From Pusillimonas sp. DMV24BSW_D (lineage in GTDB: Bacteria > Pseudomonadota > Gammaproteobacteria > Burkholderiales > Burkholderiaceae_B): DNA of 64,000 nt. The first letter of the stretch is position 1, and every line of letters starts with the position of its first letter. The notes under the pieces were generated by a model, which was not told the origin of the DNA, searched no databases, and saw only the letters and a list, made by a program, of their open reading frames with translations. This document shows positions 19,854-64,000 of this stretch, piece by piece. Made by a program: the position numbers and the translations under genes. The stretch spans positions 806,001-870,000 of the forward strand of contig NZ_CP049990.1 of NCBI RefSeq assembly GCF_011388195.1, read 5' to 3'.

Positions 19854-21044
19854 ATGAGTTCAGCAGACAACCTGCCGTTTATCGTTGCAGGGGGTGGCAT
19901 TGGCGGCCTTTGTGCAGGCCTGGCGTTGGCACGCAAGGGCCTTCCGGTGAAAGTGCTGGAGCGCGCGCCTGAAATTGGCGAAATTGGTTATGGCATTCAG
20001 ATTGCGCCGAATGGCCATGCAATTCTGAAAAAGCTCGGCGTCATGGAAATTCTGGAGCCCCAGGTGTTTTATCCGGATGCGTTGATTCTGGTCGATGCCA
20101 TCGATTTGAAGGAAGTATCGCGCATTCAGTTGAAAGATCGTTTTGTCGACCGCTACAAGTATCCTTATTTTGTGGTGCACCGTCGCGATTTGCATGCCGC
20201 TTTGGTTGAAACCTGCCGGCGTGAGCCCCATTTCTCGTTCGAGGAAGGCGAGGTCGACAGTTATGAGCAGCGCGATGGTTATGTTGAAGTCAATTGCAGC
20301 GACGGCCGTACGATGCAGGCGCGCGCGATGATTGGTTGTGAGGGCTTGCGCTCTAAAACGCGTGCCCGCATTGTGGGTGACACCCCACGCTCTACCGGTT
20401 ATGTGGTGTACCGCGGCTTGGTGCCTGTAGAGGAAATCTCCAATAAAGAATATTTGAATTCGATGGTAGTGTACGGTGGGCCGGGTTGCCACATTGTTCA
20501 ATATCGTTTGCGCGGCGGTACGGTCATGAATAATGTGGCTACGTTCCAAAGCCCGGCGTATGCGCGCGGTGAAACAGACTACGGCGGTGTGGAAGAATTC
20601 AAGGCTGCTTACGACAAGTGTGCGCCCGAAGTGCGTGACATGTTGAAATATTTTGCGTTGGATAAAAACTGGTTGTTGCACGATGTTCAGCCTGCAACCA
20701 ACTGGACCGACGGCAACGTGACGTTGTTGGGTGATTCGGCGCACGCCACGCTTCAGTATTTGGCGCAAGGTGCCATTATGGCAATGGAAGACGCGCTGGT
20801 GATGGCGCACGAAGTGGCGCAGCAACCTAATAATGTGAACGCAGCGTTCATGAAGTATCAGGATCAGCGCTTGAACAGGACGGCGCGTGTCATTACCACG
20901 GCGCGGCTGTTTGGTGCCATTGTGCATGCTCGTGAAGGTGAGCGCCTGTTGCGTAATGAACTTGCCAAGAGTCGCGATGTCGATATTCCATGGGAAGTCG
21001 ATTGGTTGTATCAGGGCGCGAATTTGCTCGACAAGATCGACTGA
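19854..21044 (+). CDS. FAD-dependent 3-hydroxybenzoate 6-hydroxylase-type monooxygenase
   Basis: A 396-aa class A flavoprotein hydroxylase. It shows the FAD fingerprint VAGGGIGGLCAGLALARKG near the N-terminus, the family RRDLHAALVE motif, and LLGDSAHATLQYLAQGAIMAMEDA at about residue 285 (second FAD motif). The EIGYGIQIAPNGH segment resembles 3-hydroxybenzoate 6-hydroxylases of the MhbM/XlnD type rather than salicylate 1-hydroxylases. The expected product is gentisate, the substrate of the preceding gene. The ATG at 19854 has AAGGGAG six bases upstream; a GTG at 19848 is in frame but inside that site. The exact substrate (3-hydroxybenzoate or salicylate) is inferred. Confidence 0.82.
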   Translation: MSSADNLPFIVAGGGIGGLCAGLALARKGLPVKVLERAPEIGEIGYGIQIAPNGHAILKKLGVMEILEPQVFYPDALILVDAIDLKEVSRIQLKDRFVDRYKYPYFVVHRRDLHAALVETCRREPHFSFEEGEVDSYEQRDGYVEVNCSDGRTMQARAMIGCEGLRSKTRARIVGDTPRSTGYVVYRGLVPVEEISNKEYLNSMVVYGGPGCHIVQYRLRGGTVMNNVATFQSPAYARGETDYGGVEEFKAAYDKCAPEVRDMLKYFALDKNWLLHDVQPATNWTDGNVTLLGDSAHATLQYLAQGAIMAMEDALVMAHEVAQQPNNVNAAFMKYQDQRLNRTARVITTARLFGAIVHAREGERLLRNELAKSRDVDIPWEVDWLYQGANLLDKID

Positions 21045-51362: not shown

Positions 51363-51384
51363 TGCAAAATTAATGGAGAGGAAA

Positions 51385-53460
51385 GTGAAGAAAATTTGGG
51401 TCAGCAGTTTGAATGCCGGTGTAGGTTTGGTTGCGGCTTGTTATGGTGTTGGCGTTGCAGCAGTGGAGCCGCCTGTGTCGGAGCCGAAGCAATTAGAAAA
51501 GATTGTCATTAAAGCCAACCCGTTGAGAACAGAAGCCAATAACGCCGCGGTACCGGTATCGGTGTTGTCTGGTGAGCGTTTGCTGTTAAGCGATCAAACA
51601 ACTTTGGGTGTGGCGCTTGAGGGGTTGCCCGGTGTACGCGCCGATACCTTTGGGGCAGGTGCGAGTCGCCCAATTATTCGCGGACAAACAGCGCCGCGTG
51701 TAGTGGTGTTGCAAGATGGTTCGGATGTGATGGATGCTTCCGGCATCTCCCCGGATCACGCTATCTCTGTCGACCCGATGCTGGCCGATCGAATTGAGGT
51801 CATTCGGGGTCCGGGAGCCTTGCTATATAGCGCAGGTGCGATTGGCGGTGTGGTGAATGTGGTTGATGGCCGGATACCGGATGCGGTGCCTGTTGCCGGC
51901 GTTGAAGGGTTTGCCAATTTGCGGGGCGCGTCCGGTGCCCGCGAGCGAGCAGGTGCGGTGGGTGTCACGGCAGGAGAAGGAAATTTCGCTATTCGGTTGG
52001 AGGGCGCTACACGGCATGCCGATGATTACAGGGTGCCTGATTGGTCGACATCGCGTTTGCCCGGATCATTTGCCCGGAGCACAACAGGCAGTATCGGCGC
52101 CAGTTGGTTTCACGATAACGGCTATACCGGGTTGTCGTTCAGCCAGATGAACAGTCGTTACGGGTTACCAGGCCATGACCATGGCTATGACGATTGCCAC
52201 CCTCACGACTTAGCCTTGCATTGCGGTGGGCATGATGATCATGACGAGGACCATGAGGAAGACGGGCACGACGATCACGACCATGAAGGTTCAGATGACA
52301 GCGATACACCGGTTACGCGGTTAAAGTCGCAACGGTTTGATGCTCGCGGCGAATACAGCAACCCGTTACCCGGGTTAACGCGGCTGAGCTGGCGTGCCGG
52401 ATTTGCAAAATACCGACACGACGAAATGGAGCATGACGAGATTGCCAGCACGTTCAAAAACCGGGCGTACGATTTGCGTCTTGAGTTGGCACATGCTCCG
52501 ATCGCCGGATGGGAAGGGGTGTTCGCATTGCAAAATGGTCAAAGTCGTTTCGATACCTCCGGGCCTGAGCGATTTTTACCGAGCACGCGTACAAAAACGT
52601 GGGGCGTGGCGTTGCTCGAGACTTATCGTTTAAACGATTGGCGTTTTGAGGTTGGGATGCGGCACGATTGGCAGTCGATTCGTCCGGACTCCACCCAGCC
52701 GGCTTATCAGGGGCGGGCGTTGTCGGGGTCGGCCGCCGCGATATGGGAATTTGCGCCTGCGTATTCTCTGGCATTGCAGTTCTCCCGGGCGGAACGCATG
52801 CCGGGCGCCCAGGAGCTTTATGCCGATGGTGTCCACTTGGCCACGAATACATATGAAATAGGGCAGTCGGACTTAGGCACCGAAAAATCAACCGGCGTGG
52901 ATCTGACGTTAAGAAAGACCGAGGGTGATTTCACTTTTGAAGCCAGCGTATTTTATAACCGCGTGAACGATTATATTTATGCTCAAACGTTGGACCGTTA
53001 TGAGGACTTTCGCTTAATTCGCTATGCGCAGCAGGACGCGCAGTTCGTGGGTCTTGAGCTCGATATGAATTACCAGGTGAATCGGACTATTTCCGTAGGC
53101 GTTTTCGGTGACGTGACACGAGGGCGTTTAACGAATGGCGGCGGGGATCTACCGCGCATTCCTGCCGCGCGTCTGGGTGGCCGGATTAATGCGCAATGGC
53201 AGGACTGGCGGGCAAACCTTGAGGTGATCAGGGTTTTGCGTCAGAGTCGGATAGCCGCATACGAAAGTGCGACACCGGGGTATACCATGCTTAACGCCGG
53301 TGTTGCATATGATTTCGAGGCGCAAGGGGCTGATGCGCAAGTTTATTTGCAAGGGCGCAACCTTTTAAACCGTTTGGCGTTTAACCACAGTTCTTATCTC
53401 GCACAGGTGGCGCCGTTACCCGGTCGCAGTATTATGTTAGGCGTACGCGTGGACTATTAA
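51385..53460 (+). CDS. znuD: TonB-dependent zinc receptor, ZnuD-like, with His/Asp-rich loop
   Basis: A 691-aa outer-membrane receptor: signal peptide (KKIWVSSLNAGVGLVAACYGVGVAA), TonB box-like LEKIVIKANP, plug domain (GVALEGLPGVRADTFGAGASRPIIRGQ, RIEVIRGPGALLYSAGAIGGVVNVVD) and a C-terminal barrel ending in VRVDY. An extracellular segment at about residues 263-306 has eleven His and many Asp/Glu (GHDHGYDDCHPHD, then HDDHDEDHEED), a zinc-capture loop as in ZnuD. I chose the GTG at 51385, because GGAGAGGA directly precedes it and the product has a proper signal; an ATG at 51373 overlaps that site. Confidence 0.88.
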   Translation: MKKIWVSSLNAGVGLVAACYGVGVAAVEPPVSEPKQLEKIVIKANPLRTEANNAAVPVSVLSGERLLLSDQTTLGVALEGLPGVRADTFGAGASRPIIRGQTAPRVVVLQDGSDVMDASGISPDHAISVDPMLADRIEVIRGPGALLYSAGAIGGVVNVVDGRIPDAVPVAGVEGFANLRGASGARERAGAVGVTAGEGNFAIRLEGATRHADDYRVPDWSTSRLPGSFARSTTGSIGASWFHDNGYTGLSFSQMNSRYGLPGHDHGYDDCHPHDLALHCGGHDDHDEDHEEDGHDDHDHEGSDDSDTPVTRLKSQRFDARGEYSNPLPGLTRLSWRAGFAKYRHDEMEHDEIASTFKNRAYDLRLELAHAPIAGWEGVFALQNGQSRFDTSGPERFLPSTRTKTWGVALLETYRLNDWRFEVGMRHDWQSIRPDSTQPAYQGRALSGSAAAIWEFAPAYSLALQFSRAERMPGAQELYADGVHLATNTYEIGQSDLGTEKSTGVDLTLRKTEGDFTFEASVFYNRVNDYIYAQTLDRYEDFRLIRYAQQDAQFVGLELDMNYQVNRTISVGVFGDVTRGRLTNGGGDLPRIPAARLGGRINAQWQDWRANLEVIRVLRQSRIAAYESATPGYTMLNAGVAYDFEAQGADAQVYLQGRNLLNRLAFNHSSYLAQVAPLPGRSIMLGVRVDY

Positions 53461-54807: not shown

Positions 54808-55401
54808 ATGAGACAGAGTTATTCAGCCGTGCCGAACAACGATTCAGTTTCGGATATAGAACAGAAAAAAAAGCAACATCCTGACAACGTCGGTTCAACG
54901 ATTAAGAAGGAACCTTTGCCCGACGACATTACGCCCGACGTATTCAGCCAACAGGGGCTTTGGTCGCGCCCGGGGTTCTTGGTGCGCCGGTTGAATCAAA
55001 TTCATTATGCAATGTTCTTCGAGGAATGCAAAGAGGGGAATATCACCCCGGTTCAATATGGGATTCTGACTGTGTTGTCGCGCAACCCGTGGCTGGATCA
55101 AACCGCAATTGGCTATGAGTTGGGGCTTGATCGCACCACGTCCGCCGATGTGATCAAACGGCTGGAGGAGAAAGGTCTGGTCGAGCGGCGCGTGAATCCT
55201 ACCGATAAACGCTCACGTCAGGCCAATATCACGCCTGAAGGGCTGGCGCTCATGGAGTCGCTGAAAGACGGTATGGCGAGATCGCAGCAACGCCTCATCG
55301 AGCCCCTGTCGCCGGCCGATCGCAAGACATTCATGACCTTGCTGGCTGAAGTGGTGGAGGCAAACAATCAACATGGCCGGGCGGCGTTGAAGTCTGTTTG
55401 A
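54808..55401 (+). CDS. picR: MarR-family regulator, PicR-like
   Basis: A 197-aa MarR regulator with a 45-residue polar N-terminal extension, then LWSRPGFLVRRLNQIHYAMFFEECKEGNITPVQYGILTVLSRNPWLDQTAIGYELGLDRTTSADVIKRLEEKGLVERR (split domain, HTH about residues 105-135). This type (NicR/PicR) represses nicotinate or picolinate genes and is released by a pathway intermediate. It heads the cluster picR-C-E-D-F, as in Alcaligenes. Palindromic sites before its own gene, picC, the Rieske operon and the TRAP gene suggest it controls all four. Effector unknown here. Confidence 0.82.
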   Translation: MRQSYSAVPNNDSVSDIEQKKKQHPDNVGSTIKKEPLPDDITPDVFSQQGLWSRPGFLVRRLNQIHYAMFFEECKEGNITPVQYGILTVLSRNPWLDQTAIGYELGLDRTTSADVIKRLEEKGLVERRVNPTDKRSRQANITPEGLALMESLKDGMARSQQRLIEPLSPADRKTFMTLLAEVVEANNQHGRAALKSV

Positions 55402-55453: not shown

Positions 55454-55469
55454 TGTCAGTATACTGACA
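55454..55469. promoter_or_regulatory. PicR-type operator, site 2 (before picC), perfect palindrome
   Basis: TGTCAGTATACTGACA is a perfect 16-bp palindrome 41 bp before the picC start. It is the best of the four related sites and the likely main operator of the catabolic genes. Confidence 0.75.
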
Positions 55470-55509: not shown

Positions 55510-56472
55510 GTGAGCCGAATTCGTAAAATTGCGTTGGAAGAGCACTTTTCAGGTGTGGGTTTTGGCGATTATTCAAAAGCGTTTGTCAGCCTGATCGACC
55601 CTGCCGTGGCGGCCGACTTAACGCGTCGCCTTACCGATTTCGACGAAATTCGTTTAAAGGAAATGGACGCGGCCGGAATCGATTATGTGATTCTTTCGCA
55701 AACGGGCCCTGGGGTGCAGGCCGAGAAAGACACGGCGGCCGCTATTGCCCGTGCAAAGGAAAATAATGATTTCCTGGCGGAGCAGATTGCGCGGCACCCC
55801 ACGCGTTTTGGCGGTTTTGCGCATTTGCCCATGCAAGACCCCAAAGCGGCGGCCGACGAACTCGAGCGTGCGGTGAATGTGTTGGGTTTCAAGGGGGCGC
55901 TGGTGAACGGCCACACCCATGGCGTGTATTACGATGACCCGGCGTTTGACGTGTTTTGGGAACGCATGCAGGCACTGGATGTGCCCTTGTATCTGCACCC
56001 TTTCAATATGTTCGATACCCCGCACATGTTCACCAAACACCCTGAATTGATGGGCGCCACTTGGGGCTGGGGGGTGGAAACCGGTACGCATGCATTGCGC
56101 CTGCTGTTCGGCGGTGTGTTTGATCGCTTCCCGAAATTGAAGTTGATTCTGGGGCATATGGGCGAAGGGCTGCCGTTTTTACGCTGGCGTTTCGACAGCC
56201 GTTTTGCTGTGTATCCGCAGGGCGTTACGCTGGAGCGCAAGCCGTCCGAATACTTCGGCTCCAACATCGTCATCACGACATCGGGCGTATGTTCACATCC
56301 TTCTTTAATGGGTGCCATTGGCGAAATGGGCGCAGAAGGTGTTATGTTTTCGGTAGATTACCCTTATGAAGAAACTGCGGTGGCCGCCGAGTTTATCGAA
56401 ACGGCACCGATGGATGAAAAAACACGTGCGCTGGTTTGCCATGGCAATGCCGAGCGCCTGTTCAAGCTTTAA
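55510..56472 (+). CDS. picC: 3,6-dihydroxypicolinate decarboxylase-like amidohydrolase (PicC)
   Basis: A 320-aa amidohydrolase-2-family TIM-barrel decarboxylase, same length as gamma-resorcylate decarboxylase and PicC. Metal ligands can be placed: E10 and H12 (ALEEHF), H163 (LHPFN), H216 (LGHMGEGLPF) and D283 (SVDYPYE). It should remove the carboxyl group of 3,6-dihydroxypicolinate to give 2,5-dihydroxypyridine, the substrate of PicD two genes on. The GTG start has GAGGAG upstream. A plain 2,6-dihydroxybenzoate-type activity cannot be excluded, but the neighbours make the pyridine substrate much more likely. Confidence 0.82.
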   Translation: MSRIRKIALEEHFSGVGFGDYSKAFVSLIDPAVAADLTRRLTDFDEIRLKEMDAAGIDYVILSQTGPGVQAEKDTAAAIARAKENNDFLAEQIARHPTRFGGFAHLPMQDPKAAADELERAVNVLGFKGALVNGHTHGVYYDDPAFDVFWERMQALDVPLYLHPFNMFDTPHMFTKHPELMGATWGWGVETGTHALRLLFGGVFDRFPKLKLILGHMGEGLPFLRWRFDSRFAVYPQGVTLERKPSEYFGSNIVITTSGVCSHPSLMGAIGEMGAEGVMFSVDYPYEETAVAAEFIETAPMDEKTRALVCHGNAERLFKL

Positions 56473-56483
56473 ACGGAGATAGT

Positions 56484-57317
56484 ATGAGTGCGTTTTTGTA
56501 TGGGGCCAATGTTCACGCTAACGGTATTCGTCAGCATTACCTGCGTTATGGGGGCAATGAAGGCGAGCGGGCCGGGCGTGATGCGGTTGTCATTGTTCCC
56601 GGCATTACCAGCCCGGCTATTACATGGGGCTTTGTCGCAGAACGGTTTGGCCAACATTTCGACACTTACGTGCTCGATGTTCGCGGCCGTGGGTTGTCGG
56701 AAGCTTCCGATACGCTCGATTACAGTCTGGATGCGCAGGCGGCTGATGTTATTGAGTTCGCCAAAGCGCTGGGGTTGAAGCGTTACAGCATTGTGGGCCA
56801 CTCAATGGGTGGCCGCATCGGCGTACGCGCAGCGCGTTCAGAACCGGAAGGGTTGACGCGTCTGGTCATGGTCGACCCCCCCGTTTCAGGCCCTGGGCGT
56901 CGCGAGTATCCGTCGAAGTTGCCCTGGTATGTCGATTCCATGGCGCTGGCGCGCAAGGGTTGTAGTGCTGAAGAAATGCGTGCTTTTTGTCCTACCTGGA
57001 CACAAGAGCAATTACAGTTGCGCGCCGAGTGGCTCCATACTTGCGACGAACGCGCTATCATCACCAGCTTCGAAGATTTCCACAAAGACGACGTTCACGC
57101 CGATATGCCCAAGGTTAAAGTGCCCACCATGCTTATGGTGGCCGAAAGGGGCGACGTCATTCGTGAAGAAGACATTGAAGAAATCAAGACATTGATCCCG
57201 GGTGTCGCTATTTCCCACGTGAATGACGCGGGCCATATGATTCCCTGGGACAACGAAGAAGGCTTTTATGAGGCTTTCGGCGATTTCCTGGGTGCCCCGC
57301 TAACCCGTCGCGCCTAA
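56484..57317 (+). CDS. picE: N-formylmaleamate deformylase (PicE/NicD-like alpha/beta hydrolase)
   Basis: A 277-aa alpha/beta hydrolase. The triad reads S107 (GHSMGG), D224 (ERGDVIREED) and H251 (NDAGHMIPWDNEEGF). The VPGITSPAITWGFVAERFG start and LDVRGRGLS-SDTLDYSLD segment are very like NicD. It removes formate from N-formylmaleamate, the ring-cleavage product of 2,5-dihydroxypyridine, leaving maleamate. The ATG at 56484 has ACGGAG upstream. It lies between the decarboxylase and the dioxygenase, as in picRCEDF. Confidence 0.87.
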   Translation: MSAFLYGANVHANGIRQHYLRYGGNEGERAGRDAVVIVPGITSPAITWGFVAERFGQHFDTYVLDVRGRGLSEASDTLDYSLDAQAADVIEFAKALGLKRYSIVGHSMGGRIGVRAARSEPEGLTRLVMVDPPVSGPGRREYPSKLPWYVDSMALARKGCSAEEMRAFCPTWTQEQLQLRAEWLHTCDERAIITSFEDFHKDDVHADMPKVKVPTMLMVAERGDVIREEDIEEIKTLIPGVAISHVNDAGHMIPWDNEEGFYEAFGDFLGAPLTRRA

Positions 57318-57341
57318 TTCCGCTATTTTCAGGAGTTCATC

Positions 57342-58385
57342 ATGCCTGTAAGTGATTATCAACTTGTTTCCGCCTGGCAGGAAGTGCTGCGTTTGTCCAA
57401 GCTCGAGGCGGGCCAAACTGTAACGATTCTGACCAGTACCGCTACGCACCCCCAGAATTTGCGGTGTGCCGCAATTGCGGTGCAATCCCTGGGGGCGGTT
57501 ATGAACCGGCTGGATCTGCCGCCGGTCAATGCCGAGAAAGCGCTTAGTCGTGATCCGCTGGCCTATCTGGGGACCACGCCACTTACGGGTAACAAGGCCG
57601 CGATTGCCTGCCTGAAAGAAAGCGATTTGGTACTAGACCTTATGACGCTCTTGTTTTCGCCGGAGCAAATCGACATTCTGAAAAGTGGCACGAAAATTCT
57701 GTTGGCGGTTGAGCCGCCTGAAGTTTTGGTGCGCACGGTACCTACCGAAGCCGACCGCAAGCGCGTGAAAACGGCGGCGGCACGTATTGAGGCTGCCAAG
57801 GAAATGACGGTGGTGTCGGACGCGGGCACCGACCTGCGCTGCCCCATAGGTGAATTCCCGGCTACTGCAGAATATGCTTTTGTAGATGAAGCCGGCCGCT
57901 GGGATCACTGGCCAAGCGGTTTTGCCTTTACCTTCCCCAACGAAGGTCAGGCCACAGGCCGTATTGTGATCGACAAGGGCGATATTCTATTGCCGCAGAA
58001 AAGCTATACGACCGACCAGATTGTTCTAACGGTTGAGAACGGCTATGCCACCAAGATTGAAGGTGGTGTCGATGCCGAGCTGCTGCGTGAATATATGGCT
58101 TCCTTCAACGATCCTGAGGGCTATGCCATCTCCCATATTGGCTGGGGTTTGCAACCGCGCTGTTATTGGTCAACCCTGGGCTTGTACGACAAAGAACAAA
58201 CCATCGGCATGGATGCGCGTGCCTATGAGGGCAACTTCCTGTTCTCGTTAGGGCCGAACAACGAAGGTGGTGGAAGCCGCACAACGGCTTGCCATATTGA
58301 TATTCCTTTGCGCAATTGCACCGTGTCGCTCGACGGTGAAGAGGTGGTGCGTAACGGCAAAGTGCTGGATGGTGGTGTTAAATGA
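57342..58385 (+). CDS. picD: 2,5-dihydroxypyridine 5,6-dioxygenase (PicD/NicX)
   Basis: A 347-aa member of the M29 aminopeptidase-like fold used by NicX. Three iron ligands fall at exactly the positions reported for NicX: H265 (AISHIGWG), H318 and D320 (TACHIDIPL). The enzyme opens 2,5-dihydroxypyridine between C5 and C6 with O2 to give N-formylmaleamate. Annotation as leucyl aminopeptidase would be wrong. A CAGGAG site precedes the ATG; the stop overlaps picF (ATGA). Confidence 0.93.
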   Translation: MPVSDYQLVSAWQEVLRLSKLEAGQTVTILTSTATHPQNLRCAAIAVQSLGAVMNRLDLPPVNAEKALSRDPLAYLGTTPLTGNKAAIACLKESDLVLDLMTLLFSPEQIDILKSGTKILLAVEPPEVLVRTVPTEADRKRVKTAAARIEAAKEMTVVSDAGTDLRCPIGEFPATAEYAFVDEAGRWDHWPSGFAFTFPNEGQATGRIVIDKGDILLPQKSYTTDQIVLTVENGYATKIEGGVDAELLREYMASFNDPEGYAISHIGWGLQPRCYWSTLGLYDKEQTIGMDARAYEGNFLFSLGPNNEGGGSRTTACHIDIPLRNCTVSLDGEEVVRNGKVLDGGVK

Positions 58386-59011
58386 CCCAAGGTAATGATG
58401 TTCAAACCTATGCCAAGCAAGGGTTCGGGAATCAGTTCGAACTGAAGGCTCCTGTGGGCCTGCTGATTATCGATTTTGTGAATGGTTTTGCCGACCCCGA
58501 GGTATTTGGGGGCGGCAATATTAAAGAAGCCATTCAGAACACTGTTCCTTTGTTGGCTGAGGCACGCAAGCGTGGCTGGCCGGTTGCGCATACGCGTATT
58601 GTCTTTGCCGACGACGGCGCGGATAACAATATTTTCTCGTTGAAAGTGCCCAGTATGCTGGGCCTGAAGGAAGACCACCCCAACAGCGCCATTGTGTCTG
58701 AGCTGGCACCGGCGGAAGGCGAATACGTAGTGCGCAAAACGGTTCCGTCGGCGTTCTTCGGCACCTCGCTGGCTGCTTGGTTGGCGATGCGTGGTGTGCA
58801 AACGTTGGTGGTGGCCGGTGCGGTAACCAGTGGTTGCGTGCGTGCCAGTGTCGTCGACGCCATGCAGTGGGGCTTTCGCCCGCTGGTGTTGTCTGATTGC
58901 GTGGGTGACCGCGCCATGGGGCCGCACGACGCAAACATGTTCGACATGGAACAAAAATACGCCACCGTGATGACACGCGATGAAGCGTTAAAGGCCTTGG
59001 AAGGGCTGTAA
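58382..59011 (+). CDS. picF: Maleamate amidohydrolase (PicF/NicF, isochorismatase family)
   Basis: A 209-aa cysteine hydrolase. The D-K-C triad is D31 (LLIIDFVNGF), K119 (YVVRKTVPSAFFGT) and C152 (AGAVTSGCVRASVVDA). It hydrolyses maleamate to maleate and ammonia, the last nitrogen-releasing step of the pathway. It overlaps picD by 4 nt. A maleate cis-trans isomerase gene would be expected next but is not in the window; a bidirectional terminator follows instead. Confidence 0.92.
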   Translation: MTQGNDVQTYAKQGFGNQFELKAPVGLLIIDFVNGFADPEVFGGGNIKEAIQNTVPLLAEARKRGWPVAHTRIVFADDGADNNIFSLKVPSMLGLKEDHPNSAIVSELAPAEGEYVVRKTVPSAFFGTSLAAWLAMRGVQTLVVAGAVTSGCVRASVVDAMQWGFRPLVLSDCVGDRAMGPHDANMFDMEQKYATVMTRDEALKALEGL

Positions 59012-59032
59012 GTATTGCCTGCCAAGGCAAAC

Positions 59033-59091
59033 AAAAAACCGCTGCTTTAAACGTCTCCGAAAGGAGACTATTTAAAAAGCAGCGGTTTTTT
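59033..59091. terminator. Bidirectional terminator between picF and the Rieske operon
   Basis: An outer stem AAAACCGCTGCTTT pairs with AAAAGCAGCGGTTTT, and an inner stem GTCTCC/GGAGAC lies in the loop; A-runs on the left and T-runs on the right allow termination on both strands. A separate small hairpin TTGCCT/AGGCAA lies at 59015-59030. It separates the convergent picF and oxygenase transcripts. Confidence 0.9.
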
Positions 59092-59092
59092 A

Positions 59093-59620
59093 TTAAACCG
59101 GATAAACCAGGTCGGTAGCCAGAATTTCCGTATCGTATACAACCTGACGTTCTTTCAGCAGCAGGCCGTTTTCACTGCGTACAAAGCGGTCGTAATACTT
59201 GCCCGCCAGGTGAATGGTGGACGGGCCTTCGATAAGCGTTTGAATCAACAGGTAGTTGGTTTCGGCCTCAATGAACTCGTCTGTCTCATCCATGATACGA
59301 ATGTTCGATATCATGTGCATGATGTGGCGTGGTGCGAACATTTGTGTTTGTGCAATCGCCACGGCGCGGTCTTGCATCATTCCGCGTCCTTCCGCATAAA
59401 CCAGGCCAACCAGCATTTTCTGGTTGGCATTCTCGCGTGACGTAATGCGATAGACCCCATCTTCGGTAAAGAATTCAGGCCATTTTTTTACGTCGCAGGC
59501 ATCCAGTACCGCGCAATATTCGATATGAAACGCTTCGATTTCCGCGCGCAGTTGTTGGGCCCGCGCAGCGTCAACCTTGACAGGCTGATAAGAAAAGTCG
59601 GTTTTCATTGTTGAAAGCAT
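59093..59620 (-). CDS. Ring-hydroxylating oxygenase small (beta) subunit
   Basis: A 175-aa NTF2-fold subunit: RAEIEAFHIEYCAVLDACDVKKWPEFFTEDGVYRITSRENAN, then RHIMHMISNIRIMDETDEFIEAETNYLLIQT and DRFVRSENGLLLKERQVVYDTEIL. Length and wording fit the beta subunits of salicylate-5-hydroxylase/NagH-like systems. It has a structural role in an alpha3-beta3 hexamer. It begins one base after the alpha stop, with GGGGAT upstream, and is the last gene of the minus-strand operon. Confidence 0.88.
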   Translation of the reverse strand: MLSTMKTDFSYQPVKVDAARAQQLRAEIEAFHIEYCAVLDACDVKKWPEFFTEDGVYRITSRENANQKMLVGLVYAEGRGMMQDRAVAIAQTQMFAPRHIMHMISNIRIMDETDEFIEAETNYLLIQTLIEGPSTIHLAGKYYDRFVRSENGLLLKERQVVYDTEILATDLVYPV

Positions 59621-59621
59621 A

Positions 59622-60911
59622 TTAGATCCCCATTACTTCGCGGTAGTATTTGTACATGGCACGAATCGCCGCTTCTGAAATCAGGGACTCCGACGTGCCG
59701 ATTTTGTCGGCATCGAGTTTTACGACACTGTTTTCGGTGCTCGAGCGGCGTACCCCTTCCTGTACGAAGCGCAGTGCCTCGTTGTCTTCCAGGCCCAGAA
59801 AGCCTGAGGGCCCCATGAGGTTGCCCTGACGCAGGCGATGGCGCAGCATTTCTTCATCGTCTTCTTCGTAGCCGAACATGGTCCATTGCATAATCATGCT
59901 GTTCGGGCCATTGGGAATAATCTGACGAATACCCAGGGTGTTCATTTCACGCTGAATAATGAAATTGGGCCAGATGGTATCCATGGTGACGGACCAGGGG
60001 GAGTCGAACTCTTTAACGAAGTGCAGGAAACGCTCGTCTTGCAGTCGCAGCCCTTCATGGAAAGAACGCATTTCCTTTTTTGTTTCCGGGTTCACGTCGG
60101 CGTAAAGGTCGTCGGACTTGGCCGAGCCCATAATGCCGTGGCGCCCGTGTACCTTGTCGGCGAACATCATGGATTTATTGCCGGCCACCAATAAACCGAA
60201 AACCACCAGGAATGAGTGCAACAGCGTTGCGTGATAGGGGTCTTTCAGGTTCTCGTGGTACATCTTCCAGTTACAGGGCAATTCATTGCGGTAGTAACCC
60301 AGGATTTTCAATGGCTTGCCTGTGAACGTGACCTTAAAGTCCTCCAGAATTTCAGGGCTCAGATACTCTTCAAGTGGCTCGACTTTGTCGGAATACGAGG
60401 CAAAAACGACACCGTTCAAAGTGGTGACGTGCAGCTTGCGCAGGCCGTGGTCTTCATTGCGGAAGTCACGCGGCATGCCGCCTTGTTTGTTTACGCCACG
60501 TTTGAAGGGCACGCCCTGCAGGTCGCCTTTTAGTGTGTACGACCACTGGTGGTAAGGGCAAACGAATTCTTTTGCGTTGCCTTTGCTTTCGCGACAGAAC
60601 TCTGCCCCACGGTGGGCGCAACGGTTTTCAAAAACATGAATGGAGCCGTCTTCCGCACGGGATACCACAACGGGGGTGTCGCCTACATAAGAGCGTTTGT
60701 AGTCGCCGTGGTTGGGAATTTCGGCTTCAAGGGCAACGAAGTTCCACGTGTCGCCGCGGAAAATCAGCGCCATTTCGCGGTCGTATATTTCCTGGCTGGT
60801 ATAGACCCAGTCTGGAATGTAATGCAGGTCGTTTTCAGGCCAGGCATAATTCTCCAGGGCGTCGTCTTTGGACCCCAGTGTTTGCCCGATCACGGTTTGG
60901 GATTGATACAT
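59622..60911 (-). CDS. Ring-hydroxylating oxygenase large (alpha) subunit, salicylate-5-hydroxylase-like
   Basis: A 429-aa oxygenase subunit. Rieske ligands are C98-A-H100 and C118-P-Y-H121; the catalytic iron site is D224-P-Y-H227-A-T-L-L-H232. The length and the IFRGDTWNFVALEAEIPNHGDYKRSYVGDTPVVV-type start match NagG and anthranilate/salicylate hydroxylases. It receives electrons through the linked ferredoxin. The nearby pic genes and shared operator sites suggest that its substrate is a hydroxypicolinate, with 3,6-dihydroxypicolinate as product; salicylate to gentisate is the main alternative. AGGAGA precedes the ATG. Confidence 0.88.
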   Translation of the reverse strand: MYQSQTVIGQTLGSKDDALENYAWPENDLHYIPDWVYTSQEIYDREMALIFRGDTWNFVALEAEIPNHGDYKRSYVGDTPVVVSRAEDGSIHVFENRCAHRGAEFCRESKGNAKEFVCPYHQWSYTLKGDLQGVPFKRGVNKQGGMPRDFRNEDHGLRKLHVTTLNGVVFASYSDKVEPLEEYLSPEILEDFKVTFTGKPLKILGYYRNELPCNWKMYHENLKDPYHATLLHSFLVVFGLLVAGNKSMMFADKVHGRHGIMGSAKSDDLYADVNPETKKEMRSFHEGLRLQDERFLHFVKEFDSPWSVTMDTIWPNFIIQREMNTLGIRQIIPNGPNSMIMQWTMFGYEEDDEEMLRHRLRQGNLMGPSGFLGLEDNEALRFVQEGVRRSSTENSVVKLDADKIGTSESLISEAAIRAMYKYYREVMGI

Positions 60912-60929
60912 GGAAGATCTCCTGTGAAA

Positions 60930-62225
60930 TCAGTTTGGCTGGCCCGCACTATGGGCCGCCGTCGCGCTTTTGGCGAAAGCGCGTGCAGTGACGGATGTGT
61001 CGGTAAAGTCGTTGGGGTTGATGCGCACGCCTTTTTCGAACAGCGTGCGCAGCGCGCGCAAATCTCCGCCTGCATTGACTGCGATGGCGTAACGCGGAAC
61101 GTTGTTCCTGAGCCCCAACATAATGAATTTCGGCGTTTCGGCTTTCGGATCCAGCTCGCCGCGAATAACGTAATTTAAATCGGGTTCCGGCAGCCCCAGC
61201 ATCTGAATGTTGCAACCAAACTGATCCGTCCAGAACCATGGGTAGGCGGCGGGTGCCGGATCTTTGCCCAGCATATGCGTTGCCGCGATGCGTGCCTGCT
61301 CATTGGCGTTCTGCCAAGACTCAAGGCGCGAAGCCTGTGCTGCGCTGCCTCGAATTTGGCTGGTGCAATCGCCGGCGGCATAAACATTCGCCTGGCTTGT
61401 TTGGCATTGCTCATTCACCAGAATGCCGCCATTGTTGGGGTCGATATCCAGACCCCCTTGGCGCGCAAGGGCGTTATTGGCTGATAACCCCACAGACACC
61501 ATAACGGTATCGGCCACAATGTGGTGTTCGTTAGGCAGGCGGATGTCCCACGACGCCTTGATGTCGGTGGGCGGCGTAATCGAGGCCGGTGCGTTACCCA
61601 GGTGGAGCGACAGGCCGGTGTGCACAATACGTTGTTGCAGCCAGTCAGAAAATGTGGGCGGGGCAACACGGCTCAAAACACGGTCGGTGGCCTCAATAAC
61701 TGATACCGCCACCCCCATTTTGTGGGCGGTTGAAGCCACTTCAAGCCCCAGAAACCCGCCACCGATGACGGCCAGATGTTTGCTGTATTTCAGCGCGGTG
61801 CGAAGGGCGTGCGCATCATCGAGCGTTCTTAAATAGAACACGCCGGGGGCATCTTCTGGAAACGCTTCGATAAAACGGGCGGTGCCGCCGGTTGTTAACA
61901 GGCATTGGTCGAACACCACTTGCGAGTTGTCCGACAACTGCGCCGTGCCTGCAAGCGGATCGATTGACTCCACTCTCAGACCCAGACGCAGATCGATATC
62001 GGCAATGCTGTAGAAATCGACCGGTTTAACGTCGATTGCGGGTTCGTTTTCCGGTGTGGCTGCCAAGACATCTTTCGACAATGGCGGCCGTTCGTAAGGG
62101 GCGTGTGCTTCCTCACCAATAAGAGTGATTTTGCCTTCAAAGCCTTGGTCGCGCAGCGTTGCCGCTGCCACAGCGGCGGCTTGTCCGGCACCGACAATCA
62201 GAATAGAGGAGAGTGTTTCAGTCAT
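60930..62225 (-). CDS. Ferredoxin reductase, BphA4-type FAD enzyme
   Basis: A 431-aa pyridine-nucleotide disulfide-oxidoreductase-fold reductase. It shows SILIVGAGQAAAVAAATLRDQG (FAD), APYERPPLSKDVL, HLAVIGGGFLGLEVASTAHKMGVAVSVIEATDR (NADH) and NVYAAGDCTSQ. It passes electrons from NADH to the Rieske ferredoxin encoded just upstream. The C-terminal domain is the usual reductase dimer domain. I chose the ATG at 62225, with AAAAAGG upstream; a TTG two codons earlier is possible. Confidence 0.92.
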   Translation of the reverse strand: MTETLSSILIVGAGQAAAVAAATLRDQGFEGKITLIGEEAHAPYERPPLSKDVLAATPENEPAIDVKPVDFYSIADIDLRLGLRVESIDPLAGTAQLSDNSQVVFDQCLLTTGGTARFIEAFPEDAPGVFYLRTLDDAHALRTALKYSKHLAVIGGGFLGLEVASTAHKMGVAVSVIEATDRVLSRVAPPTFSDWLQQRIVHTGLSLHLGNAPASITPPTDIKASWDIRLPNEHHIVADTVMVSVGLSANNALARQGGLDIDPNNGGILVNEQCQTSQANVYAAGDCTSQIRGSAAQASRLESWQNANEQARIAATHMLGKDPAPAAYPWFWTDQFGCNIQMLGLPEPDLNYVIRGELDPKAETPKFIMLGLRNNVPRYAIAVNAGGDLRALRTLFEKGVRINPNDFTDTSVTARAFAKSATAAHSAGQPN

Positions 62226-62281
62226 ATTCAAACCTTTTTAAGCCTTTGCAAACCACTTAGGTTACTATGCGTGGCGCCAGG

Positions 62282-62587
62282 TTAAAGGTTTACCAGAATC
62301 TCATCGCCCTCGACTTTGACTTCGTACACTTTGACGGGTTCGGTTGCAGGTGCAGATTTTGGTTCGCCGGTGCGAAGGTCGAACATGGCTTGATGCAAGG
62401 GGCATTCCACACAGCCGTCCTCAATAAAGCCATCGGACAACAACGCGAATTGGTGGGTGCAAATGTTGTCGGTCACGAAGTATTCGCCTTCAGTGTGGTG
62501 TACCGCCAACTGTTTGCCTTCCAACTCTACGCCCAAAGATTCGTCTTCTTCAATTTGTCCGACTGTTGCAATCTTGATCCAATTCAT
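62282..62587 (-). CDS. Rieske-type ferredoxin of the oxygenase system
   Basis: A 101-aa Rieske ferredoxin with C43-T-H45 and C62-P-L-H65, the right size and layout for BphA3/NagAb-type carriers. It shuttles electrons from the reductase to the oxygenase alpha subunit. It is the first gene of the minus-strand operon fdx-reductase-alpha-beta, so it is nearest to the promoter with operator site 3. Confidence 0.93.
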   Translation of the reverse strand: MNWIKIATVGQIEEDESLGVELEGKQLAVHHTEGEYFVTDNICTHQFALLSDGFIEDGCVECPLHQAMFDLRTGEPKSAPATEPVKVYEVKVEGDEILVNL

Positions 62588-62619: not shown

Positions 62620-62635
62620 AATCAGTATGCTGTAT
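62620..62635. promoter_or_regulatory. PicR-type operator, site 3 (before the Rieske operon)
   Basis: AATCAGTATGCTGTAT; on the minus strand it reads ATACAGCATACTGATT. It keeps the CAG-ATACTGA core of site 2 and lies 33 bp before the ferredoxin start. Confidence 0.6.
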
Positions 62636-62745: not shown

Positions 62746-62761
62746 GATCAGCATACTAACA
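62746..62761. promoter_or_regulatory. PicR-type operator, site 4 (before the TRAP receptor)
   Basis: GATCAGCATACTAACA: 12 of 16 bases match the perfect palindrome at 55454. It lies 175 bp before the TRAP receptor start. Confidence 0.5.
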
Positions 62762-62935: not shown

Positions 62936-64000
62936 ATGCAAAGACGTCGCTTTTTAACCCAGGCAGCCGCGGCAACCGGAGCCGGTCTGGCCGCAGTCGG
63001 CCTTCCCGCCGTAGCGCAGAATGCACCCACCGTGCGCTGGCGTATGTCCACCGGCTGGCCGAAAAGTCTGGATGCACTTTACGGTTCCGCCGATGAGCTT
63101 TGCCGCCGTGTGGGCGAGCTGACAGGTGGAAAATTTGAAATTCGCGCCTTCCCTGGCGGTGAAATCGTGCCTTACGCCCAAAATATGGAAGCGGTCAGTA
63201 ACGGTACGGTTGAATGTAACCACGTTCTGGCTACTGCTCACATTGGCACGAACACCGCTATTGCGTTCGATACCGGTTTGTCGTTTGGCATGAATGCGCG
63301 TCAGCACAATGCCTGGATCCAGTTCGGCGGCGGTATGGAAAAACTGCGCGAAATGTATGGCCAGTACGGCATTACCAACTTTGTCACCGGCAACGTGGGC
63401 GTACAAATGGGCGGCTGGTATCGCAAGGAAATCAAGTCTTTGAAAGATCTTGAGGGTCTGAAAATTCGTGTTGGTGGTATCGGCGGCATGGTGCTGCAAA
63501 AGCTCGGTGCGGTTCCCCAGCAGATTCCGCCCAGCGATATTTACCCCTCTCTGGAAAAAGGCACGATCGACGCAGCTGAGTGGATTGGACCCTACGATGA
63601 TGAACGCCTGGGCCTGAACAAGGTTGCGCCGTTTTACTACTCACCCGGCTGGTGGGAAGGCAGTGCTTCCATTACCACGATGGTGAATACGGAAGCCTGG
63701 GAAAAATTGCCCGCCGAGTTCAAGTCTGCGTTTGAATGCGCTGCGAATGAACAGGCGCTGCGCATGTTGGCTGCTTACGATGCCAAGAATCCGCCCGCTT
63801 TGCGTTCCCTGATCGCCGGTGGTGCACAGTTGAAGTACTTCCCCAAAGACGTGATGGAAGCCGCTTACGCCGCATCACAAGAGTTGTGGGGCGAGTTGTC
63901 GGAAGAAAACCCGGATTTCGCCAAGATCTATCCCGAGTGGAAGAAATTCCAGGAGGCCGAGGCGAGCTGGTTCCGTGTTGCTGAAAACGCACTCGATAAC
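62936..64000 (+). CDS. TRAP transporter solute receptor (DctP family), Tat-exported, partial
   Basis: At least 355 aa; the frame runs through the right edge without a stop. It starts with a twin-arginine signal (RRRFLTQAAAATGAGLAAVG, cleaved after AVAQ) and continues WRMSTGWPKSLDALYGSADELCRRVGELTGGKFEIRAFPGGEIVP, a hallmark of DctP receptors of the TT_C (carboxylate-binding) group. VQMGGWYRKEIKSLKDLEGLKIRVGG holds the conserved carboxylate-binding Arg. AAAAGGAG precedes the ATG. Operator site 4 and its place next to the Rieske operon suggest uptake of the pyridine acid. The small and large permease genes would lie beyond the window. Confidence 0.9.
   Translation, partial: MQRRRFLTQAAAATGAGLAAVGLPAVAQNAPTVRWRMSTGWPKSLDALYGSADELCRRVGELTGGKFEIRAFPGGEIVPYAQNMEAVSNGTVECNHVLATAHIGTNTAIAFDTGLSFGMNARQHNAWIQFGGGMEKLREMYGQYGITNFVTGNVGVQMGGWYRKEIKSLKDLEGLKIRVGGIGGMVLQKLGAVPQQIPPSDIYPSLEKGTIDAAEWIGPYDDERLGLNKVAPFYYSPGWWEGSASITTMVNTEAWEKLPAEFKSAFECAANEQALRMLAAYDAKNPPALRSLIAGGAQLKYFPKDVMEAAYAASQELWGELSEENPDFAKIYPEWKKFQEAEASWFRVAENALDN

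Follow-up and report, generated by a model that had tools for sequence, protein, structure and literature searches.

The pic gene cluster of Pusillimonas sp. DMV24BSW_D and a Rieske-type oxygenase system as its probable PicB

Which enzyme provides PicC with 3,6-dihydroxypicolinate in a pic cluster that contains Rieske oxygenase genes instead of a recognisable flavoprotein hydroxylase gene? This question is raised by a locus of Pusillimonas sp. DMV24BSW_D, which spans positions 55510-62587 of a 64,000-nucleotide stretch of contig NZ_CP049990.1 (hereafter the window, to which the coordinates refer). The genes picC, picE, picD and picF are located opposite to the genes of a four-component Rieske system, and a first-pass annotation had suggested that this salicylate-5-hydroxylase-like system replaces a flavoprotein PicB. 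If true, the locus would encode a new route for the hydroxylation of pyridines. However, published PicB is encoded by the four genes picB1B2B3B4 and designated a 6-hydroxypicolinate monooxygenase; the passages describing it leave unstated which subunit is encoded by which gene (PMC10142695). Moreover, the alpha subunit of the hydroxypicolinate 3-monooxygenase is classified, with reference to Qiu et al. 2019 for Alcaligenes faecalis JQ135, as a Rieske oxygenase of the family PF00848 (PMC9060491).

Since PicB is encoded by four genes, the question of a flavoprotein PicB lapses, and since PicB itself is a four-component Rieske system, the proposed route to 2,5-dihydroxypyridine is the published one. 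Thus, a pic cluster lacking a flavoprotein is normal. The locus is almost certainly one more species' copy of the known pic cluster, through which picolinic acid is degraded aerobically, with the Rieske system acting as PicB. A literature search yielded, among the matches listed, no further title on PicB beyond the two papers cited above. In the portions of two other papers that were covered (PMC12016517; PMC10740729), PicR appears solely in the reference lists.

Gene content and order of the cluster

The eight genes form intact reading frames in the order first described, and the Pfam and NCBIfam families agree with the assignments, picD having no match in either collection. The picC gene (55510-56472, plus strand) encodes an Amidohydro_2 protein, the predicted 3,6-dihydroxypicolinate decarboxylase, with solved decarboxylases as relatives (the best being gamma-resorcylate decarboxylase, E 1.4e-79) and 74% identity to the counterpart in Alcaligenes sp. 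SORT26. It is followed on the same strand by picE (56484-57317; putative N-formylmaleamate deformylase of the alpha/beta hydrolase type, 71% identity to SORT26), for which the open reading frame caller had chosen a TTG at 56436, while inspection of the frame by eye makes the ATG at 56484 likelier. The product of picD (57342-58385, plus strand; 81% identity to SORT26) has a single solved relative, the 2,5-dihydroxypyridine 5,6-dioxygenase 7cn3 (E 5e-117), which suggests the same function. The picF gene (58382-59011, plus strand) probably encodes the maleamate amidohydrolase, an Isochorismatase protein that is related to the 'putative isochorismatase' 3ot4 (E 1.2e-96) and 76% identical to the SORT26 protein.

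The Rieske system is encoded on the minus strand by genes for a Ring_hydroxyl_B beta subunit (59093-59620; 61% identity to SORT26), an alpha subunit with Rieske and Ring_hydroxyl_A domains (59622-60911), a flavin adenine dinucleotide (FAD)-dependent ferredoxin reductase of the glutathione-reductase type (60930-62231; Pyr_redox_2 and Reductase_C) and a Rieske ferredoxin (62282-62587; 57-58% identity to two Alcaligenes loci). All four components of a four-gene PicB are present, and their genes adjoin both picCEDF and a set of picA-like genes. No protein with an FAD_binding_3 domain (PF01494), the one flavoprotein family searched for, is encoded in the cluster; the genome contains 40 such matches, of which the only one in the window lies at 19881-20897.

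The window ends inside the cluster, and the remaining genes continue downstream in the same genome. A gene for a picT-like solute-binding protein of the DctP family, belonging to a tripartite ATP-independent periplasmic (TRAP) transporter, starts at 62936 on the plus strand and runs on past the window end at 64000. It is followed by genes for a molybdenum cofactor (MoCo) hydroxylase (L032:4071-8608), which encode a MoCo subunit (821 amino acids), an FAD subunit (276 amino acids) and a fusion of a 2Fe-2S subunit with a CoxG domain (410 amino acids). This trio corresponds to picA1A2A3 in location and composition. At the other end, picR (54808-55401, plus strand) encodes a regulator of the MarR family. 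As picR and the picA-like genes fall outside positions 55510-62587, the coordinates of the first-pass annotation omit evidence that helps to decide the case. The clusters of A. faecalis JQ135 and Bordetella bronchiseptica RB50 consist of the same parts, namely picC, picE, picD, picF, a four-gene picB, an adjacent picA1A2A3, a divergent picT and picR (PMC10142695). In Pusillimonas, picG is likewise separate from the cluster, as has been described for JQ135; the candidate for the last step, a maleate isomerase, is encoded at 660.8 kb (best solved match 4fq7, E 6.5e-95).

A 2019 abstract in the Journal of Bacteriology reportedly speaks of "PicB, a four-component 6HPA monooxygenase" (6HPA, 6-hydroxypicolinic acid) and gives the order picRCEDFB4B3B2B1A1A2A3. 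The window and the following stretch match this order and content, with the picT-like gene sitting between picB and picA. From this order, we take the ferredoxin, reductase, alpha and beta genes to be picB1, picB2, picB3 and picB4, respectively. Within the system, the reductase shows the lowest conservation (43-44% identity to two Alcaligenes loci); if it is indeed PicB2, this agrees with the relation between RB50 and JQ135. For PicB2 of these two strains, a similarity of 47% is given (PMC10142695).

The whole block is also found elsewhere. In Alcaligenes sp. SORT26, all 13 genes that were compared (picA, picT, picB, picF, picD, picE, picC and the MarR gene) lie together and are 43-81% identical. 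The picR gene shares 69% identity, over 75% of its length, with the MarR gene next to the SORT26 pic genes; the latter points away from picC, whereas picR and picC are codirectional in Pusillimonas. In A. faecalis AU14, the cluster is split (L042 and L125), with picB and picA near 4.13-4.15 Mb and the MarR gene and picC near 1.61 Mb, where a picE match covers 234 of 293 residues.

In the published pathway, picolinate is converted by PicA to 6-hydroxypicolinate, by PicB to 3,6-dihydroxypicolinate and by PicC to 2,5-dihydroxypyridine, followed by PicD, PicE, PicF and PicG (PMC10142695). In Pusillimonas, the MoCo hydroxylase PicA would produce 6-hydroxypicolinate, and electrons would pass from NAD(P)H via the FAD reductase and the ferredoxin to the alpha and beta subunits, allowing PicB to hydroxylate the substrate at C3, para to the 6-hydroxyl group. 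PicC would then decarboxylate 3,6-dihydroxypicolinate, and PicD, PicE and PicF, together with the maleate isomerase encoded elsewhere, would lead to fumarate. The earlier suggestion that para hydroxylation generates the substrate of PicC is probably right as far as the sequence can tell, and the enzyme that supplies it is very probably a Rieske system belonging to the salicylate 5-hydroxylase/anthranilate dioxygenase group.

The alpha subunit and its related loci

A phylogenetic tree was calculated for 28 alpha subunits, comprising 21 from 80 related loci and seven others. The alpha subunit of the window, which is 78% identical to that of A. faecalis AU14, falls in a clade of 22 PicB-type sequences including A. 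faecalis (support 100/99). A separate clade (100/99) is formed by NagG, a pA81 relative and two paralogues from the same genome, and AndAc groups with a third paralogue, likewise apart from the alpha subunit of the window; the positions of AndAc and of the paralogues at 920 kb and 390 kb are unsure due to their long branches. Thus, the comparison with NagG and AndAc that had been proposed places the protein with neither of them. The residues C98, H100, C118, H121, D224, H227, H232 and D376, which we take from the usual motifs to be the Rieske and mononuclear iron ligands, are invariant in all 28 sequences, as is R329. An alignment with 7c8z, using an inferred offset of 19 residues for a tag, identifies R329 as the equivalent of R323 in NagG. 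The hydroxypicolinate 3-monooxygenase alpha subunit has been assigned to an aryl-carboxylate cluster with a conserved arginine, and the role of the arginine in that cluster is taken from the same source (PMC9060491).

The alpha subunit was used to collect related loci, of which the best 80 out of at least 586 relatives were analysed. Genes were scored as present at 40% identity or more over at least 50% coverage, and contig ends or the limits of the flank truncate some of the loci. All four picB genes are found in 67 and picC in 64 of the 80 loci; picC, picE, picD and picF together occur in 50, the three picA genes in 54 and the entire set in 39. At least one of picC, picD, picE, picF and the MoCo subunit gene is present in 76 loci. 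The four loci lacking all of them are L046, L085, L101 and L109; two of these, L046 and L109, are short, and the two small PicA subunits do have matches in L101. We also inspected 121 genomes, consisting of the Pusillimonas genome and 120 drawn from its family. With cut-offs of 65% identity for PicC and 75% for the alpha subunit (next best matches, 49% and 52%), close relatives of both proteins are encoded in the identical 26 genomes. In 22 of these genomes the two genes are located within 15 kb, in three on different contigs and in one at a greater distance.

It is very improbable that the Rieske genes are mere neighbours of the pic genes and specify a salicylate 5-hydroxylase or an anthranilate dioxygenase. 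Such an identity might be suggested by the similarity to NagGH-NagAaAb, since the alpha subunit is about 46% identical to annotated NagG and shares its presumed metal ligands and carboxylate arginine. However, the alpha subunit falls outside the NagG clade, to which the genome contributes its alpha subunits from 1083 kb and 390 kb, the latter on a longer branch. NagAa is a 2Fe-2S reductase, and its pA81 counterpart is annotated as such, whereas the reductase of the window has no Fer2 match. A salicylate 5-hydroxylase identity was rejected, as it finds no support in the tree. Likewise, the system resembles AndAaAbAcAd in having four components, and all four AndA models match, including that of the reductase. 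However, the alpha subunit is only 42% identical to annotated AndAc, and the scores stay below the curated NCBIfam cut-offs for AndAc (438.9 of 750 bits), AndAd (135.5 of 230), AndAa (322.3 of 650) and AndAb (122.3 of 150). The joint occurrence of the alpha subunit and PicC in the same 26 genomes also speaks against a mere neighbour.

The alpha subunit of the NagG clade at 1083 kb (G000:C1:1082736-1083962; L115) is 45-46% identical to that of the window and is a likelier salicylate 5-hydroxylase of this organism, as judged by its place in the tree.

Putative operator sites

PicR is said, in a 2022 abstract in Applied and Environmental Microbiology, to recognise the motif TCAG-N4-CTNN, with a single site ahead of picC and a pair of sites in the region separating picB from picT. 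The window matches this arrangement. A predicted PicR-type operator, TCAGTATACTGA (55456-55467), is situated in the picR-picC intergenic region, and two predicted sites, TCAGTATGCT (62622-62631) and TCAGCATACT (62748-62757), are located between the ferredoxin gene of picB and picT. PicR would repress the picC and picB/picT promoters from these sites. The earlier proposal of an operator shared by the Rieske genes and the picC cluster is thus plausible in its arrangement, but the motif alone is unspecific. The window contains three copies of the complete palindrome TCAG-N4-CTGA, two of which lie at other places, and the tighter form TCAGYATRCT, which was picked after the sites had been seen, has 28 matches in the genome (12 forward, 16 reverse) as compared to 12 for the backward control. 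No form of the motif is specific by itself, and the operator was dropped as stand-alone proof because the motif forms are too common in the window and the genome.

It is the count across loci that carries the weight. Within 400 bp before the ferredoxin gene, TCAG-N4-CT is found in 67 of 70 loci, as compared to about 10.4 expected from single-base shuffles, and in three of 70 in a coding control stretch inside the alpha gene; ten of the 80 loci were left out for want of a usable ferredoxin match, and the loci are related by descent. Before picC, the motif is present in 46 of 64 loci by a plain count without a shuffle control.

Several points count against identifying the cluster with the published one. 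The agreement of 26 out of 26 genomes ignores common descent, and in one of them (G036) the PicC and alpha genes are 1.4 Mb apart. Burkholderia sp. 4M9327F10 (L085) carries a full picB set and a MarR gene, and no PicC was found in its genome at E 1e-60; its best PicA match reaches 36%. The loose form TCAG-N4-CT is frequent, with 31 matches in the window vs 13.15 expected. Furthermore, SORT26 and AU14 stood in for the PicB sequence of JQ135, and the reactions and the regulation suggested for this organism all rest on homology and on the published pathway, whereas gene content and order, the motif sites, the co-occurrence and the clade were observed directly.

Substrate of PicB and other genes of the genome

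The first-pass annotation had considered both 3- and 6-hydroxypicolinate as substrates, and the adjoining picA-like genes favour the latter. Hydroxylation of 3-hydroxypicolinate at C6 would yield the same PicC substrate, an argument from chemistry only, and we regard it as highly unlikely to be the natural reaction because the genes next to picB correspond to the enzyme that, in the published pathway, makes 6-hydroxypicolinate (PMC10142695). That PicB accepts 3-hydroxypicolinate in addition, giving two entries to 3,6-dihydroxypicolinate, appears improbable but somewhat less so. The least credible explanation is that a salicylate-hydroxylase-like system supplanted a flavoprotein PicB. In its favour, one could quote that the cluster encodes no FAD_binding_3 protein and that the solved structure nearest to the alpha subunit is 7c8z, the large subunit of a salicylate 5-hydroxylase (E 7.7e-121). 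Against it stand the Rieske-type PicB of the studied strains (PMC10142695 and PMC9060491) and the recurrence of the entire block, including the Rieske genes, in Alcaligenes sp. SORT26.

The set of PicB relatives remains of use, and substrates could differ in the few that come from genomes lacking a close PicA or lacking PicC. Six genomes have a locus without close picA genes; three of them have a match elsewhere or just outside (69-72%), and three have none (best matches of 43%, 36% and 35%). In Cupriavidus numazuensis, where the locus is cut by the flank, a 69% MoCo match is located on the same contig as picC. In four loci (L055, L064, L066 and L079, from SAGV5, Pigmentiphaga sp., a Burkholderiales metagenome-assembled genome and Pigmentiphaga litoralis, respectively), picB and picC, picE, picD and picF lie beside a MoCo enzyme gene whose product is 32-33% identical to PicA; some of these loci may have another entry substrate. 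The best PicA match in the entire SAGV5 genome is the one of 43%, and the 72% match of P. litoralis lies outside the locus, its frame containing one stop. A Burkholderiaceae metagenome-assembled genome, which may be incomplete, carries picB with picC, picE, picD and picF (L108) and has a best PicA match of 35%.

Beyond the picA-like genes of Pusillimonas follow genes for an NMT1-type binding protein, frames recognised by eye as the presumed remainder of an ATP-binding cassette transporter, and the TRAP components DctQ and DctM. The 3.19-Mb genome contains 32 Rieske-domain and eight MoCoBD_1 matches, which seems high for its size, as judged without comparison genomes. Finally, a frame of 695 amino acids at 51373-53460 resembles, by eye, a TonB-type receptor; it contains a stretch rich in His and Asp and is perhaps related to metals.

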